Shown: positions 9,681-59,900 of the stretch, one piece after another
How the letters are laid out: each line of letters opens with the position of its first letter
How positions within the stretch are numbered: the stretch's first letter is position 1
NCBI RefSeq assembly: GCF_949628265.1
Contig: NC_088786.1
Span: 2,480,001-2,544,000, forward strand
Direction: 5' to 3'
Origin: Cloeon dipterum
Lineage: Eukaryota; Arthropoda; Insecta; Ephemeroptera; Baetidae
DNA length: 64,000 bases
Position numbers and translations under genes: made by a program
Notes under the pieces: generated by a model
Told to the model about the DNA's origin: nothing
What the model saw: the letters and a program-made list of their open reading frames with translations, nothing else
The model's database searches: none

Positions 9681-12600
9681 TTAGCACAAATGCATGACGT
9701 CGACTAAGCTAGTTTGTTTAACCCGCTTGATTGCGTAGTCCTCGAAAGAGTCTCTCGTCTGCTCGAGGTCGCACACTGACCGACTTCGCTGCTTCGGCGA
9801 CACTGGACCTTCGCCTTCCGCAGGGTCCAACCTCACTTCACTCATGCTGCTTGAATTTGCAGACTCAGCGACGCCATTCATCTGGAATTATCAAGGTCTA
9901 GCCTTTGAGACTATGCGGACATTCATATATAATTTTTTTTAAAAGAATGAACACTTTTCTTATCATTATTATCTCCTATTGCCTAATCTACGAGACGCGC
10001 TGGCTGGTCCAAACTGATATTATACTAAACGGTATATAATTAAGGGCTAAAATAATGCATAAATATGATATTATAAACAAAATGTAATCAAAAAGTCTTG
10101 TCACCTCTTGCACCGACGCATCTTGGCAAGTGTCGTTCTTCTTGCTTTTCGATTTGGCAGGTGCTTTGCTGGCGTGGCTGTGTCCGTGGCCTTTGCCCCC
10201 CTTGCCGTGACTGTGGTTGTGGCCCTCGTGGTGGTGGTGGGGAAGGTCTTCGGTGCTGTCTGTTGGGCTTGGGGTCTGCTTGCAGCAGTTCTGATTTTCG
10301 CACCCTTTGCCCTGGCACCGCAAATAGCACTCGCCATCCGGAAAACTCCTTTCCACAGCCTACAAGAAATTTATAAGTAGAGGCTTCGTAAAGACAAGAG
10401 TAAGTTTCTAAATAGAACATTTTTTATGTGAGAGGAGAAGGGTTTAAAATTCTGAAAATTAGTATGGTGCTGGAACAAAGAGAGTGGCCATATTGTGACG
10501 TCATCAGTGTCATGGCTGCACTGATGTTCAGGAAACGTTGAATTTTCATTTTTTTAAAGGAAAATCCAACAATTAAATCTTAAAAGTTGATTTCAAAAAC
10601 TCCTTCGCGCCACTCTGATTTTCAGAATTGTTTGGTTTCAAATAAACTTAAATTGTCTCTTTTAACATACGTGGTTTGATTTACCTGTGAAAATTCTGGT
10701 TGAAGAGTTGCTTGGGTGACGCCCCGTTCGTGGAAAAAATCCATCAATTGTTCTTTAATTTGCACGTATTCCTGTTTGGCAGAAAATGAGCTTATGCAGC
10801 GGAACTCGATAAAAAGTCTGAACGTACACCATGGTTGGGCAGGACAATGTGCGCTGTCGCGTATACTTTTGTTGGGGTTAGACACCAAATGTGCACTTCG
10901 TGGACATTCTCAATGCTCGTGAACTCTTTGACCAGGTCATTTTTCAGCGAGTCAATGTCGATGTAGCCAGGAATGGTTTGCAAGAGGATACTTGCAGACT
11001 CTTTCACTAAAATTTGGACACTTTTTAGGAAAAACTCTAGAGAAAAACAGTTCACGCATTAACGATAAAAATGAAATATTTTTTTCTGATGTTTGTAGCG
11101 TTTGACAAAAGTTGGCAATAAGTTATATCGCGATATTTATCGTTCTCAGACTTCCATAATTTCAGTCAAAATTTGAACAAAGTTTTAACTGCTATAATTT
11201 CTTAACGAGTGAGCACAAATTTCTTTAGCTTCGATTGAACGAATCGATCAACTAACACATTAGTGACTAATTTGGTTGAAAGCTGCACGGCCAAGAAAAA
11301 GAAAATGAATTTGAAAAATAAGGCATAGCCAAACAATGCCCCCATTGGTATGCGGGGCACGAATTAAACAGTCGGACTCACTGTAGGGAATGCTGAGTGC
11401 GAGAAGAAAGAGGCAGGAGAGAATCGAAAGTGCAGGGTCGATGTACTTGGCCAAGTGCGGATCCGTTTTGTAGACAATCGCAGCGCACACGATCACAAAG
11501 AGGCAGCCTATTGCGAAACACATTTTGGTCAATCAATCAAAACTCGACTTCTTGCAGCATAATTATTATTGTGACACTCACTGCTGACGTCGCGAAGCAT
11601 TTCTCGCGCACCTTGCCTGCCCGTTTTGACTTGCACGTTCGACCCCGGGTCGGCTGGCACCTCGCACTTTTCGATTTGCGAAACCTCGTCCTCGCGAATC
11701 ACTGGCCTCCGCGCCGAGAGCTGCCTGTTACCCACGCGGACGTTATCTTCCGTCAGGTCGCGGTCCATCACCACGTTGCCCTCGGCGTTCACGTGCAAAA
11801 AGCTGCCCTGGTGGAAAGTGTAACCTGGAAAAAAGTATTTTTATTAAAAAAATTAAATTAAATAAAAAAAACTGTCGCGATTTTGAGGACAAAATCGGCA
11901 CCAGCCGAAGGAAATATATTTTTTAAAATAGTTCTGTCCTCAAATTAATTGATTTTGTTTCAATTATTTTTAATTTGACCAGAGAGAAAAATGTTTACTG
12001 CCTTTCATCGTCATAAAAGTGCAAAAATTGAAATTCAATTACCTCCGATCGTGAAGAAGCAAATGACATTGAGCAGGAAGCCACACAGGCCAATTATCAT
12101 GACTGGCATCGGGTAGTGCATGGCATCCGAGTGTCCGATGTGGAACAGAGTCTGCACTGCCTCGACAATGATGGAGAAGCAGAGCGAGGCCAGGAACACG
12201 GAGCCCACCAGCATGAGCAGCACCTCCATCCTCGCCCAGCCAAAGGTGTTTTTTAATCTCCGCTCAGAATTCAGGAGACCCTGCAGACGAGATTGATAGC
12301 CGAGTGTCAACCTTAAATAGAGAACAAAAGTGTGTATTGACCTGTTGCTTGCGTTGCTTGCCGTTGCAGCCGCGGCTCGACTTCCCGCGCCCCATCGAGC
12401 TCTCAGAGCTGCTATCGTCGCTGTCGGAGGTCCTCGCCGGCGCGTAATACACCCCCTGTGCTTGCTCTCTTCCATACTGGTGGGAAAAATGAGACATTTT
12501 TACATTTTTGTGTAATAAATAAATATAGTAGGTGAATCGAAATAATATATGTACAGTCCATCCTCGTCGAATGTTTGTTGTAACAATAATAAAAATTAAA

Positions 12601-13034
12601 GGAAAGCAGCTGTTCAAAACTCTTGCACGTAAACAAAATATTCTTCAATGTAATAAAACAATTTATCAAATTAAAAAAAAGCAAGAAGTTGTTTGAGAAT
12701 AATTTTGATGCTCCTTTTTAAAATTTTATGAAATTCAATCAGATTGTATGTTCTCTATGCGTCCTCAATTTCAAGAATTCACCTGGCTTCAATTTAATCC
12801 CTCGGAGCAAATATTTGTCCACTCAACAGACTGGAAACTCCTTACCTTAATGGTGATAACGCATCCAGTGAGGGCGATAAGGTTGCACAGAGTGTGATAA
12901 GAATCGACGAGCAGGGTGAGCGCGTGCGTTACGTGGCTGGCGACCAGTTCGACAATGAAAAAGAGGATGGTCAGTGCCATCATCAGGTAGAGCGGCAGCG
13001 GCTGCAGCTGCCTGAACCATTGCTTCACCGACAT
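9681..13034 (-). CDS. ZnT/SLC30A family cation transporter (ZnT1-like)
   Basis: Nine exons join in frame: 13034-12846, 12476-12342, 12280-12043, 11824-11582, 11507-11382, 11006-10828, 10771-10685, 10359-10105 and 9881-9681, giving 550 aa. The ATG at 13034 follows an acceptor at about 13059, so a 5' UTR intron is likely. TM1 is near residues 13-32 and TM2 near 36-62. TM3-TM4 are near 125-187 and TM5-TM6 near 267-310. The KESASILLQTIP motif and the cytoplasmic alpha-beta domain (312-399) follow and match the ZnT1/ZnT10 branch. Such proteins move Zn(II) (Mn(II) in ZnT10) from cytosol to outside or into vesicles by proton exchange. Two oddities: the metal-site motifs are HxxxN (H47, N51) and ExxxD (E262, D266) rather than two HxxxD. 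The His-rich segment (440-461) lies in the C-terminal tail, preceded by a Cys cluster (410-425), not in the TM4-TM5 loop. Family assignment is firm; the transported ion is not. Confidence 0.88.
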
Positions 13035-23000: not shown

Positions 23001-26000
23001 CGTAGTTCAAGTGGGCAGGGATGTGATCCGGCTTCGACGCCAGCGACGCCTGCAACCACGGCTCAGCCTCCACGTGTTGGCCCAGCCGACCGTACGTCTC
23101 GCCAATCAGGTTGTAAATGCTCTGAAAGTCAAATAAAACACCGTTTTATAATTTGAAAATTAAATTAAATCAACGAGAAAGGCTAAAAAACAAAGAAACG
23201 CAAACCTGCGGATGGAAATGTTGCGGCATCTGCTCTTTGGCCCTAAGCAGGTAGGTGAGCGCGTGCTGCGGCTGGTCTTGCTCGAGAAAGTGGCGGCCCA
23301 AATGGAAGAGCGCCGATATCCTGGCGCTCTCGTGAGACTTGGGATCCTTGAGGCCGCGGCCGTCCAAGTTTGTGGCGCGCAGAAACGCCTGCCGAGCCTC
23401 GGCGTGCCTCTTGGCCTGTCCCAAGGCGACCCCCAGGCTTACGTGCGCGGCTAATCAAATAAACGGCGTAGTGTTACAAAGCGGATTTGCCCATGTGCCG
23501 ACAGAAAACACAAAGGCGAATACCTGCGAGTCTCGGACGAAAGGAAATAGAGTTTCGGAAACTGGTTATTGCCTCTTCCAATCTTTGCTGGCTCATGAGA
23601 AGCAGACCCCTGTTTGATCAAATATAAACAATTGCCTTTTTTATTTTGACGAGGGTGAAGGAGGATATTAAACGTCCGCAATTGTTCAAAAGACCAAAAT
23701 CAGCTCAAGTCAATTGCAGTTGTAACCAAAAAACACTTTCCTGCCATCAGCTAAACCAAAATTGGATTTCTCCACGTGAAAATAATTTCCTTTTTTTTCT
23801 CATGAAATACCCGAAAATTGCGAATTAACAGTGCGTGTGCTCCAACCACCTCTAGTTGAATTTTTAGTGAAAATTACTCACAGATTGTAGTGCACGTCAG
23901 CCATGTTGGGCCTGTGGCGCAGCGCCTGGCGGTAGCAATGCTCTGCTTCTGCAAGCCTGCCCCTGGCACTCAAGACGCTGCCCAAATTTCCGTACGCTGC
24001 AGACATTCGAGAATCGATTAGACCATCGGCGTTGCACAATTTGGTGCAATACCTTTGGGTGGGTTGACTGGGATGCCGGCTCGGTAGAGCGCCTCCTCGT
24101 CTCGCCAGTCTGAGTTCCTGATCCAGGTGCGCGCCGCCAAGGATAGCAGCAAGCACGCGGCTAAAACGGCCAGCGGCCAGCGTGTCCTACCGGCCCGGCG
24201 CCACAGCTCGGATGCACCGATCGCGGTGAGCAGGCAGAGGCCGATCGAGGGCGCGTACAGCGTCCTCTCGGCCACCACGAAGCCCACGTAGCCGACCGCG
24301 TTGGACACTGGCACGTAGGTGAGCGCAACCAAGGCCAGCGACATCACCACGGCCCTGCCACGTACGCGGCCCACCTTCGGATTCAGGCATTTTGCCGCCA
24401 GGCTCGCCAGGAAGGCGTACAGCAGGGCCGAGGACACGTTCCTGGCGTCGCCGACCCGCGAGACGAGGGGAACGGCGTCCATCGACCAGTCGAAACTCAG
24501 CACCGTCGGCAGCAGGAACAGCTTCAGGTTTATCACAGGCAGGTGGAGGAAGGTCATCAGTCGGGTGGGGAAGTCGCGGCTGTGCGCGGCCGGGTTGTCG
24601 GCCGAGGAGAAGTGTGGCAGACGGCCGCCCATCACGGCCACCCTGAGCGCCAGCTGGGCCAGGAATCCGGCGGCCAGGGTGGCTAAGAGGCGTTTGTCGC
24701 GCCGGTCCCGCAGCAGGAAAACGGCGGCGGCGCACAGGGGAAGCGTCATCAGACCCTGCTCCTTGAACAGCAGGCCGGCCGTCGAGAGCAGCAAGGCGCC
24801 CCTGACGCTGCCCTTGTGCAGGGCGATCAGGGCGAGCAGCATGGCGGCCGTGGCGCCCAGCTCGGCGCGTCCCACCACCCCCGCCACGGCCTCGCAGTGC
24901 ACGGGGTGCACGGCGAACAGCAGCCCGGCCGCCAGGGCCGTCCTCCGCGGCAGCCGCAGCGCCAAGGTGGCCCACAACGGAACCAGGCCGCTGACCACGG
25001 CGTGCAGCAGCACGTTGGCCGCGTGGTAGCCGCTAGCGTCGAGTCCGCCCGCCAGGTAGTTGAGCCGGAAGGTGAGCACCGTCAGCGGCCGGAACGACTT
25101 GTGCGAGCCGCCGTGCGCCATCGGGGTGCCCCAGAAGTCGTTGCTGAACAGGTTGCTTATCGGGCTCGACGGCCGGATGTCGTCGTTTGAGAGAATGGCC
25201 CGGCTGCAACAAAAAGTGCATTTTCACGGTGGTCATAACTTAATTACTAAGCAAAATTCTGAAAATGATGTTGTAACAAAATGATGGATGGCGTGACAAT
25301 AGAAATGATGGGGTAAACAAATACAGCCTATTTTTACCTCTCTTCAAAACACAATAACCTACTTTAATTGGTATATCGCATCAGTGATCGTGCCCTCATT
25401 ATTTGTCTTTTCATAGAGCCTTGCTTTTATCTGCAGCAAAGAGCAATAATCTGCAGCGATCCGAGTTGTGTCCATCGCCGGAGCAAAAGTAAAGAACAAA
25501 ATCCGCCGGTGGCAGGAAGCGTTTAAGCCGCTTGCTGGCTGGCTGGGTGGGTGGGTGGGTGTTGTCGCGCAATAAAATTGCATTCCAGCGCACGTAACAA
25601 GGCGCGCTGGATTATTTATATCAGCTCTCTGGCAAAATAAGTCACCCCCGGGTGTATCAGCGCAGGAAAGAAGAAGACGGAGTGGAGGCTGGGATTTGCA
25701 CGTTGTCCCTCTGGCGGCATGACAGCCAATAATTTAGCCAGCAGCAACAAGATTACGCCATGCACGGCGCGCAGATAGTGCCAGAGCGCGCGTGTGTCCG
25801 TGTGCATCTTCCGCGCCGAGGGACGCCAATGGCAGCAGAAAAAAATCCCCGTTTCAATATAGCTGCGAGAGAGAAAGAGCGAGCAGCAAAACTGGCTTAA
25901 ATTTACACTGCCGCCTTTTTCCAATAAAAGCGGGATTTCCTTTCTGCGCGTCTTTTCACTTTGCATGACAAAGAACGGTGCATTACCAGCGCCTTTTCTG

Positions 26001-56944: not shown

Positions 56945-59900
56945 ATGGAACCTCCCCAAGAGAGGCACCGGGCGGGGGCCCTGAAACAACAAAACAAAGC
57001 TCACAAGCACGGACGGCATCGCAGCAAGGGCTCTCTGGACAAAATTAATAGAGGTATGACGTTAAAATCAACTCCTTTTTGGCAGTTTAATGTATTAGAG
57101 ATGTTTGTCTAGGCAAAGTTGGGCCGAAATCAGTCGTCAAGACGAACAAAAGGGACCTGAGGAGGGACGAGCGCCGCAACAAGGCGGTGCAGATTCGTCA
57201 CAATAAGAGGGAGGAGACTTTTGCACAGAAACGGCAGGTCGGTACGGCCAAGACTCCGCCAATTTTGGTGGCTATCATCGCCCTTTCCAAGGATGTGGAT
57301 CCCTTCTTGGCCAGGGACAAACTGCAAACAAGTGAGGCCGACGTAACCACAACTCGAAGTGGGGAAGGCTACATCCATTTGAGGTATAGATTATTGTTTA
57401 ATCAGAGATTCTGAAGAGAAAAACTAATTGTTTTTCTAGCGTTCCTCGGCTGAAACAGCGCTTCTCAATTTTTGCCCCGCCAGCAGGCGACTTGAATTCT
57501 GCTCTGGACATTCTTAAAGTTGCTGATTCAGTGCTGTTTGTCTTGTCTGCTTTTGGTGAATGCATTGACGAAGAGGGAGAAATACTGTTGCAAGCTGCTT
57601 TCTCTCAAGGTCTCCCAACCCCTGTCATCACGGCCACAGACCTAGCAGAACTTCCCATAAAAGTGAGATGCTAAATTAATAAACTCCAAGCACTAATTGG
57701 GTTTTTTCAGAAACGAAATGAGGTCAAGCAGAACATGCAGAAAGTCTTTTCGAGGTGGCTTCCTGAGGAGAAAGTTAGTCAGCTGGATACTGAGATGGAT
57801 GCCCAGGTTATTTTGCGGCGGCTGGGAGTTCAGAAGAGGAAACTCATCGCCCAGCGCCAGAACAGATCTCACATGGTGGCCGATGAAGTGCAATTTGAGC
57901 CTCAGCAGAACGGATTTGGCACGCTGAAGGTGACAGGGTACATCCGAGGTCAGCCGCTGGACGTCAACGGCTTGGTTCACATCACTGGCTGGGGTGACTT
58001 CCAGCTGGATCGAATCGAAGCTCCTGTTGACACCCACCCCTTGCTCCTCAACTCCTCTCGCAAAGGCTCTGCGGAGGCTGACATGGAGGATTCCTCCGTG
58101 CGCCTCTTGGACCAGGCCAATCCACAAGATCAGGAAAGTTTGGTGGCGGAAAATGTGCCTGATCCCATGGACGCAGAACAGACTTGGCCCACGGCTGAAG
58201 AATTGGAGGACGCAGAGTCAAGGACCAATAAGAAAAAGATCGTCAAGAAGGTGCCAAAGGGAACTTCGGAATATCAGGCAGCCTGGATTCCCGACAGCGA
58301 TGGAGGTAAATCATTAAAATTTGATTGGTCTTTACTTAGAGAGCTACCAAAATTTTCATTTCTTGGGTCTTACTGGAGATTTAAAGAGAATTTTCAAGGT
58401 TAAAGGTCACTCTGGGTCATTTAAAAAAATTTCCAGGTGTGTCTATAGATTTTTAAAACCAGCACCAATCTGAAAAGACCCTCAGAAGTGGTCCCAGGAT
58501 ACGTTGAACAATTTTTATTGAACATTACTGCGCTTGAAACTTAATCGTATTTTTAATTAATCTAGAAAGCGTTGATGACGAGGACGAGGACGAGGAGGAT
58601 GACGAAGAGGACCCTATGTACGATGCTGTGTCTGATGAAGAATCTGAATGTGATGAAAATGAAGAAGATGACATGGAGTCAGTCACAATGTCTGAGGTCC
58701 CTGAGAGTTCCAAGTACGACAAAGACATGGATGCAGAGGAAGAAAAATTAGCTCTAGAGAAAATTAAAGGTGAAATCAAATAATAAATTAATATTCTCTT
58801 AATTTGACAATTTAAACAGAGGCAAAAATGGATCAGATGTTCCCTGATGAGATGGACACCCCTCAAGACGCGCCTGCCAGGGTTCGCTTCCAGAAATACC
58901 GAGGACTGAAGTCTTTCCGAACCTCACCTTGGGACGTTAAAGAGGAGCTGCCTCTCGACTATGCCAGGATATTCCAATTTGAAAATTTTGCCAACACCAG
59001 GAAGAAAATTTTGGCCTTCCAAGATCGACCTGGATCACTGGTAAACAATCATAGGTTTTGTTTAATCTCAATTTTAATTACTCGAATTATTTCGCAGCCT
59101 GGGTGGTATGTGACGATGCACATTAAAAACGTGCCGGAGAAACTCATGCTGAAAAGGGAACCTGGTCAGCCAGTTGTGCTGTTCGGAATGCTACCTCACG
59201 AGCGCAAAATGTCTGTTTTGAACGTGGTACTGAAAAGATGCACCTTTGGAGATCAAGAGCCGATCAAATCCAAGGAAGCGCTCATTTTCCAACTCGGCTA
59301 CAGGCGTTTTGTTGTGAATCCCATTTTCAGCCAGCACACTAACGGAAACAAACACAAGGTAAGCAAGCGTGGAGCAAAATTGAAAGTCTGCTTTTCTTCA
59401 ACTCTCGGCTTCCACAGTACGAGCGCTACTTCCAGCCTGAAGGCATGATTGTGGCCACGTTTTTCGCGCCAATCATGTTTCCACCAGCTTCGTGTTTGGT
59501 TTTCAAACCAAATTCTGATGGAACTGAGGTAACTTGGATTTTTTCTGCCAATTTTTATATTTGACTTAAATATCTTTCTAGAATCTTGTTGCGACTGGAA
59601 GTCTGCTGTCTGTAGATCCTGACAGAGTGGTTTTGAAACGTGTTGTTCTCAGTGGCCACCCATTCAAGGTCAACAAAAAGTCTGCAACCGTTCGTTTTAT
59701 GTTCTTCAACAGGGAGGACATCAATTGGTTCAAACCTGTTGAATTGAAGACAAAATATGGCCGAAGAGGACATATTAAAGAGCCTTTAGGTGAGAGATTT
59801 TTGTTGATTTTAGAATGAGTTGTACTAAACAATTTTTTCCAGGTACTCATGGTCACATGAAGTGCGTCTTTGATGGACAGCTCAAGTCTCAGGACACGGT

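Follow-up and report, generated by a model that had tools for sequence, protein, structure and literature searches.

The transporters of the cation diffusion facilitator (CDF, SLC30) family to which ZnT1 belongs carry a metal site on two transmembrane helices, TM2 and TM5, with the motif pair HxxxD/HxxxD in canonical ZnT1 and NxxxD/HxxxD in ZnT10 (PMC10932157). Drosophila has a second ZnT1-class gene, ZnT77C (CG5130), alongside the canonical ZnT63C. Its product lies in the plasma membrane, its level is independent of dietary zinc and its knockdown adds to that of dZnT1; the authors proposed that it either has a low capacity or forms a complex with dZnT1, and the fly work did not decide between a weak exporter and a ZnT1 subunit (PMC4015762). 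It is a further question whether arthropods have a protein that fills the role of ZnT10, and which one. Here we describe a gene of the mayfly Cloeon dipterum that touches both. It lies within a 64,000-nucleotide stretch of contig NC_088786.1 (positions 2,480,001 to 2,544,000; hereafter the window, whose first letter is position 1) and encodes a ZnT1-class protein, referred to as the window protein, with the residues H/N/E/D at its metal site. With such a site, and with most of its cytosolic zinc ligands intact, it allows both questions to be put as residue-level tests. Some caution is called for, as homology alone would label such a gene a plain zinc exporter.

The metal site in TM2 and TM5

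The window protein, rebuilt exon by exon from the minus strand, is a member of the CDF/SLC30 family (Pfam Cation_efflux, 84.3 bits against a cut-off of 26.6). Its best relatives among solved structures are human SLC30A1 (4e-44) and SLC30A10 (8e-35), with other full-length ZnTs at 1.9e-8 or weaker, and its core identity is 39% to the canonical ZnT1 of the same genome (hereafter mayfly ZnT1), 35% to human ZnT1, 33% to human ZnT10, 24% to CzcD and 21% to human ZnT8. On this sequence evidence it is a member of the ZnT1/ZnT10 subgroup, in agreement with the initial annotation, which had called it a ZnT transporter. In a tree of the six proteins support within the subgroup was weak (42), and the window branch is long and may mislead.

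The membrane site consists of H47xxxN51 in TM2 and E262xxxD266 in TM5, as against HxxxD/HxxxD in canonical ZnT1. All four codons (H47, CAC, 12896-12894; N51, AAC, 12884-12882; E262, GAA, 11603-11601; D266, GAC, 11591-11589) were found exactly where the initial annotation had placed them, and its claim that two of the four metal-site residues are replaced is borne out by codons and alignment alike. In a MAFFT alignment of core segments from the six proteins (the window protein, mayfly ZnT1, human ZnT1, ZnT10 and ZnT8, and CzcD), made with no hand anchoring of the sites, N51 aligns with the Asp of TM2 and E262 with the His of TM5, and the stretch from D266 to DPALS has no gap relative to mayfly ZnT1. 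Another His aligning to the TM5 site, raised earlier as a test of the claim, was not seen: the alignment puts E262 there. The TM2 Asp is kept in all five of the other proteins, Asn being confined to the window protein, while the TM5 His position is Glu in the window protein and in CzcD. The site thus fits neither the ZnT1 nor the ZnT10 motif pair, and both of the replaced residues are of ligand type. Across the first 17 positions of the published CDF signature spanning TM2 there are four mismatches (A38, T40, V43 and N51), compared with none in mayfly or human ZnT1.

The surroundings of the TM5 motif have also changed. The cytosolic half of this helix, TGRQGAREMLRD, has a mean Kyte-Doolittle hydropathy over 12 residues of -1.50, as against +0.62 in mayfly ZnT1 and +0.43 in human ZnT1, and is hydrophilic because of R257, R261 and R265. 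Two of these, R261 (11606-11604) and R265 (11594-11592), adjoin the motif, and at their positions the alignment shows no arginine in any of the other five proteins.

The exchange of Asp for Asn takes one base change and that of His for Glu at least two. N51 alone may reflect an assembly or base error, which would leave the TM5 change unexplained. We scanned the three frames of the minus strand from 13600 to 9600 for the pattern [HDNE]xxx[DN] with a run of 14 residues after it whose mean hydropathy exceeds 1.5; the TM2 site was the sole match, so this region showed no concealed exon carrying a canonical TM5 motif. The TM5 site itself failed the scan because an intron breaks its hydrophobic tail. 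Exon 4 read through into intron 4 runs into stops, and a hidden canonical TM5 exon in the region scanned was rejected.

Within the genome the combination stands apart. For seven CDF loci (L001, L010, L011, L012, L013, L014 and the window gene, L009 not being among them) at least one of the two motifs was read. Asn in TM2 is found in the window gene only, among the six loci read there (L011 being left out for TM2), and Glu in TM5 in the window gene only, among all seven.

Partner subunit, exporter or relic

Relative to ZnT1-class proteins, the loss of sequence in the window protein is concentrated in the metal-site helices, to judge from the residues invariant in that class, of which 8 of 25 are kept in TM2 and TM5 compared with 54 of 81 in the rest of the core. 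Of the seven residues that bind zinc in the cytosolic part of human ZnT1, six are present here, and the seventh, H413, is replaced by Thr. Canonical ZnT1 (human, mayfly and fly ZnT63C) further shares with the window protein the CDF fold family and the KNTFGWAR and KESAxILLQT motifs. It differs in having H/D/H/D at its site, no charged half in TM5 and no added insert after TM2, and the His-rich stretch that the window protein has in its C-terminal tail lies instead in the TM4-TM5 loop of ZnT1.

Published mutants point both ways on the activity of such a site. The CzcD mutant D53N is hypersensitive (we checked the CzcD residue numbers against the CzcD sequence), and ZitB D57A, FieF D49A, PtdMTP1 D93A, ZitB H159E and PtdMTP1 H260D are without function (Table 1 of PMC1868760). 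Human ZnT1 H43N retained zinc transport in one study (PMC11549101) and shifted in selectivity towards Mn in another (PMC11633486), and in its outward state human ZnT1 binds zinc with only three residues (PMC11549101). In printed alignments the solved human ZnT1 chain 8j2g has Asn in place of both Asp residues; this pair is presumably engineered. A literature search for ZnT1 D47N with a structure found none, and one for statements on the changed residues in insect ZnT1 paralogs was likewise negative, although such a statement may still be in print.

We tentatively favour, with slightly less than even confidence, the view that the window protein is an arthropod 'second ZnT1' of the ZnT77C class, which would form a dimer and act together with canonical ZnT1 while transporting weakly or not at all by itself. 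It would sit in the plasma membrane and dimerise through TM3, TM6 and the cytosolic domain, preferably with canonical ZnT1. Zinc flow through its own pathway would be slight or absent, since TM2 has lost its carboxylate and the cytosolic half of TM5 contains arginines. Through the kept cytosolic zinc ligands and the His/Cys-rich tail it may stabilise the active partner, localise it or regulate it by zinc, in a role like that of ZnT6 serving ZnT5. ZnT6 has lost its transport site and an auxiliary subunit role has been proposed for it, although it belongs to another subgroup and to the secretory pathway, and is likened here from the literature and not by sequence. The rewired site, the charged entry to TM5, the partly kept scaffold of TM3, TM6 and cytosolic domain and the mostly kept zinc ligands thus fit a partnering or sensing subunit. 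A non-transporting partner had been one of two suggestions in the initial annotation; it accords with this pattern, in which the metal-site helices are relaxed but a good part of the dimer scaffold is retained, as are most of the cytosolic ligands, and with the suggestion of the ZnT77C authors (PMC4015762), the heterodimer itself being putative. The window gene is most likely the counterpart of ZnT77C: the published guide sequence for Drosophila ZnT63C translates to VTNSMA (PMC5919732), which occurs also in mayfly ZnT1 at the place where the window protein has VTHALT, and this leaves ZnT77C by elimination.

Several points weigh against a partner subunit. The putative orthology with ZnT77C rests on elimination over six residues. 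In Chinese hamster ovary (CHO) cells fly ZnT77C lowered zinc (PMC4015762), which suggests that it exports on its own unless it acts through the host ZnT1. FieF D49C is described as 'wild type' (PMC1868760), and ZnT10 Mn efflux tolerates loss of TM2 residues according to a review (PMC7926707), so a CDF transporter may remain active with an altered TM2 residue. The Pfam dimerisation domain falls under its cut-off in the window protein (22.3 against 26.7 bits). When the count is restricted to columns invariant in all five references, TM2 and TM5 keep 5 of 10 and the rest 19 of 24, a difference that is not significant (P 0.12). TM4 is relaxed too (5/13), and TM3, a dimer helix, has lost 6 of 20.

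The low capacity that the fly authors had also proposed is a serious, if minority, possibility. The site retains four possible ligands and a net charge of -2, with Glu as in CzcD, and Asn plus the remaining three residues could suffice for slow zinc export. CzcD is a known zinc exporter and, in the protein encoded by Cupriavidus metallidurans pMOL30 (L019, 11195-12145), has HMLTD in TM2 and EVWSD in TM5; we have therefore dropped E262 as proof of inactivity. A review gives the CzcD TM5 motif as HxxxD and may refer to another CzcD (PMC10932157). The zinc drop in CHO cells, the zinc deficiency mimicked by ZnT77C knockdown (PMC4015762) and the three-residue site of outward human ZnT1 favour slow export as well. 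However, CzcD is bacterial and its TM2 Asp is intact, the phenotype of CzcD D53N and the failure of ZitB H159E and PtdMTP1 H260D speak against such export, and so do R261 and R265.

An exporter of altered selectivity, for Mn, Fe, Cd or Ca, is a further serious possibility, if a slightly less likely one. Its appeal lies in the ligand classes, one Asn, one His and two carboxylates, which are those of ZnT10 (N, D, H, D) with Asn and one carboxylate at other corners, and in the fact that each replacement residue is of a type that binds metal. The shift of human ZnT1 H43N towards Mn is in keeping with it, as is the TM4-TM5 loop, far poorer in His than that of mayfly ZnT1 (Table 1). In a midge the second ZnT1-class gene is annotated ZNT-10, and the accessible part of that report does not name it among the genes with a His-rich loop (PMC12193260). 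On the other hand, Asn stands at the second TM2 position and not, as in ZnT10, at the first, and ZnT10 keeps HxxxD in TM5; the parallel drawn in the initial annotation thus holds for the ligand classes and not for their places. Glu in TM5 occurs naturally in the zinc exporter CzcD. Nor is the window protein nearer to human ZnT10 than to human ZnT1, zinc transport was kept by H43N in one of the two studies, PtdMTP1 H260D did not rescue Mn-sensitive yeast (PMC1868760), and basic residues by the site should repel divalent ions. We regard as quite improbable the bolder proposal of a ligand-permuted site, with one carboxylate in effect shifted from TM2 to TM5, by which arthropods would have evolved their own ZnT10-like plasma-membrane exporter of Mn or another metal from the second ZnT1 gene.

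Finally, a decaying gene, a base error or a wrong gene model is very improbable indeed. The single base that separates Asn from Asp and the long branch in the tree could be read in this way. Against it stand 550 codons without a stop, for which a rough sum gives a chance of 0.0005 under 200 random changes, eight GT-AG introns with no alternative TM5 exon, a GC content at third codon positions of 0.69 compared with 0.32 in three introns, the retained cytosolic Cys and His ligands, and three intron positions that by eye look shared with mayfly ZnT1. The earlier judgement that this is not simply a decayed gene, with splice junctions that look intact, is supported.

Gene model and genomic setting

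In the spliced model the gene occupies 13034-9681 on the minus strand, with nine predicted coding exons, 550 amino acids, no internal stop and GT-AG borders at all eight introns (Table 1). The extent first proposed for it, 11582 to 12900, lies inside the gene and is too short.

Table 1. Coding exons and metal-site motifs of the window gene (positions in the window).
Feature	Position	Strand	Remarks
Coding exon 1	12846..13034	-	Start codon, TM1, TM2 with H47 and N51; Pfam Cation_efflux from residue 16
TM2 metal-site motif H47-TLC-N51 (HTLCN)	12882..12896	-	Codons read; aligns to HMLSD
Coding exon 2	12342..12476	-	TM2-TM3 insert, Ser/Asp-rich and basic; mayfly ZnT1 lacks the insert
Coding exon 3	12043..12280	-	KNTFGWAR motif, TM3, TM4
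Coding exon 4	11582..11824	-	TM4-TM5 loop (2 His, against 12 in mayfly ZnT1), TM5 cytosolic half
TM5 metal-site motif E262-MLR-D266 (EMLRD)	11589..11603	-	Codons read; aligns to HVLAD
Coding exon 5	11382..11507	-	TM5 outer half; TM6 with D292 (human ZnT1 D317) and S296 (human ZnT1 C321)
Coding exon 6	10828..11006	-	
Coding exon 7	10685..10771	-	
Coding exon 8	10105..10359	-	
Coding exon 9	9681..9881	-	C-terminal tail; stop codon TAA at 9683-9681

Mayfly ZnT1 lies on contig 4 (L012); in the splice model made in this analysis it has 420 amino acids, intact HMLSD and HVLAD motifs and a match to human ZnT1 at 2e-92. In the L012 model two introns appear to be of the GC-AG type, with GCAAGT donors following 4169 and 4323. 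A search of the genome (190 Mb; five large contigs and five small ones) with the window protein gave 14 matches, nine of them the exons of the window gene itself, four mayfly ZnT1 and one marginal (E 0.002) at a third locus. This distribution indicates a single-copy gene, and a further copy was rejected. The intron positions that look common to the window gene and mayfly ZnT1 lie after TM2 (phase 0), after TM4 (phase 1) and after QPEF (phase 0), which suggests that the two are old DNA-level paralogs; a retrocopy origin was rejected on account of these and of the presence of eight introns.

The ZnT9-like gene of the genome (L001, G000:C3:26486288-26489881) has a CDF exon at about 1456-2106 with HSFAD in TM2 and VLLED in TM5, and an EVWGS stretch in an upstream reading frame. 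ZnT9 (SLC30A9) resembles the window protein in being a CDF with a changed TM5 motif (VxxxD in the literature; VLLED fits the reported V/IxxxD), but keeps HxxxD in TM2. Since L001 is a separate gene, a ZnT9-type explanation for the window gene was rejected.

In searches for relatives, a whole-protein query found no pattern match in viral contigs and a degenerate GYTFHQGSFLH pattern none in viral or genome contigs; a two-sequence alignment query gave 51 viral-contig and 200 genome-contig pattern matches, none of them confirmed by tblastn. Telomere-type repeats of five types, TTAGG-type included, were not found in 11 contig-end stretches; contig ends C1-C5, L034-L036 and L042-L044 carry long A+T-rich or tandem-like sequence. 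The genome also has 94 matches to the cuticle-protein family Chitin_bind_4, as against none in 14 prokaryotic control genomes; counts of this order point to an arthropod. Scans of the whole window for tRNA genes and Rfam families gave no matches. Directly downstream of the transporter gene, at about 9060-8850 on the minus strand, lies a THAP-domain-like stretch of 70 residues (Pfam THAP, 8.6e-6). Elsewhere the window holds an exon of a TMTC-type protein O-mannosyl-transferase (24018-25121, minus strand; Pfam TMTC_DUF1736, 3.5e-26) and two exons from a gene for a Tsr1/BMS1-type ribosome biogenesis protein (57735-59448, plus strand; Pfam AARP2CN, 4.7e-22, and RIBIOP_C, 1.2e-48).
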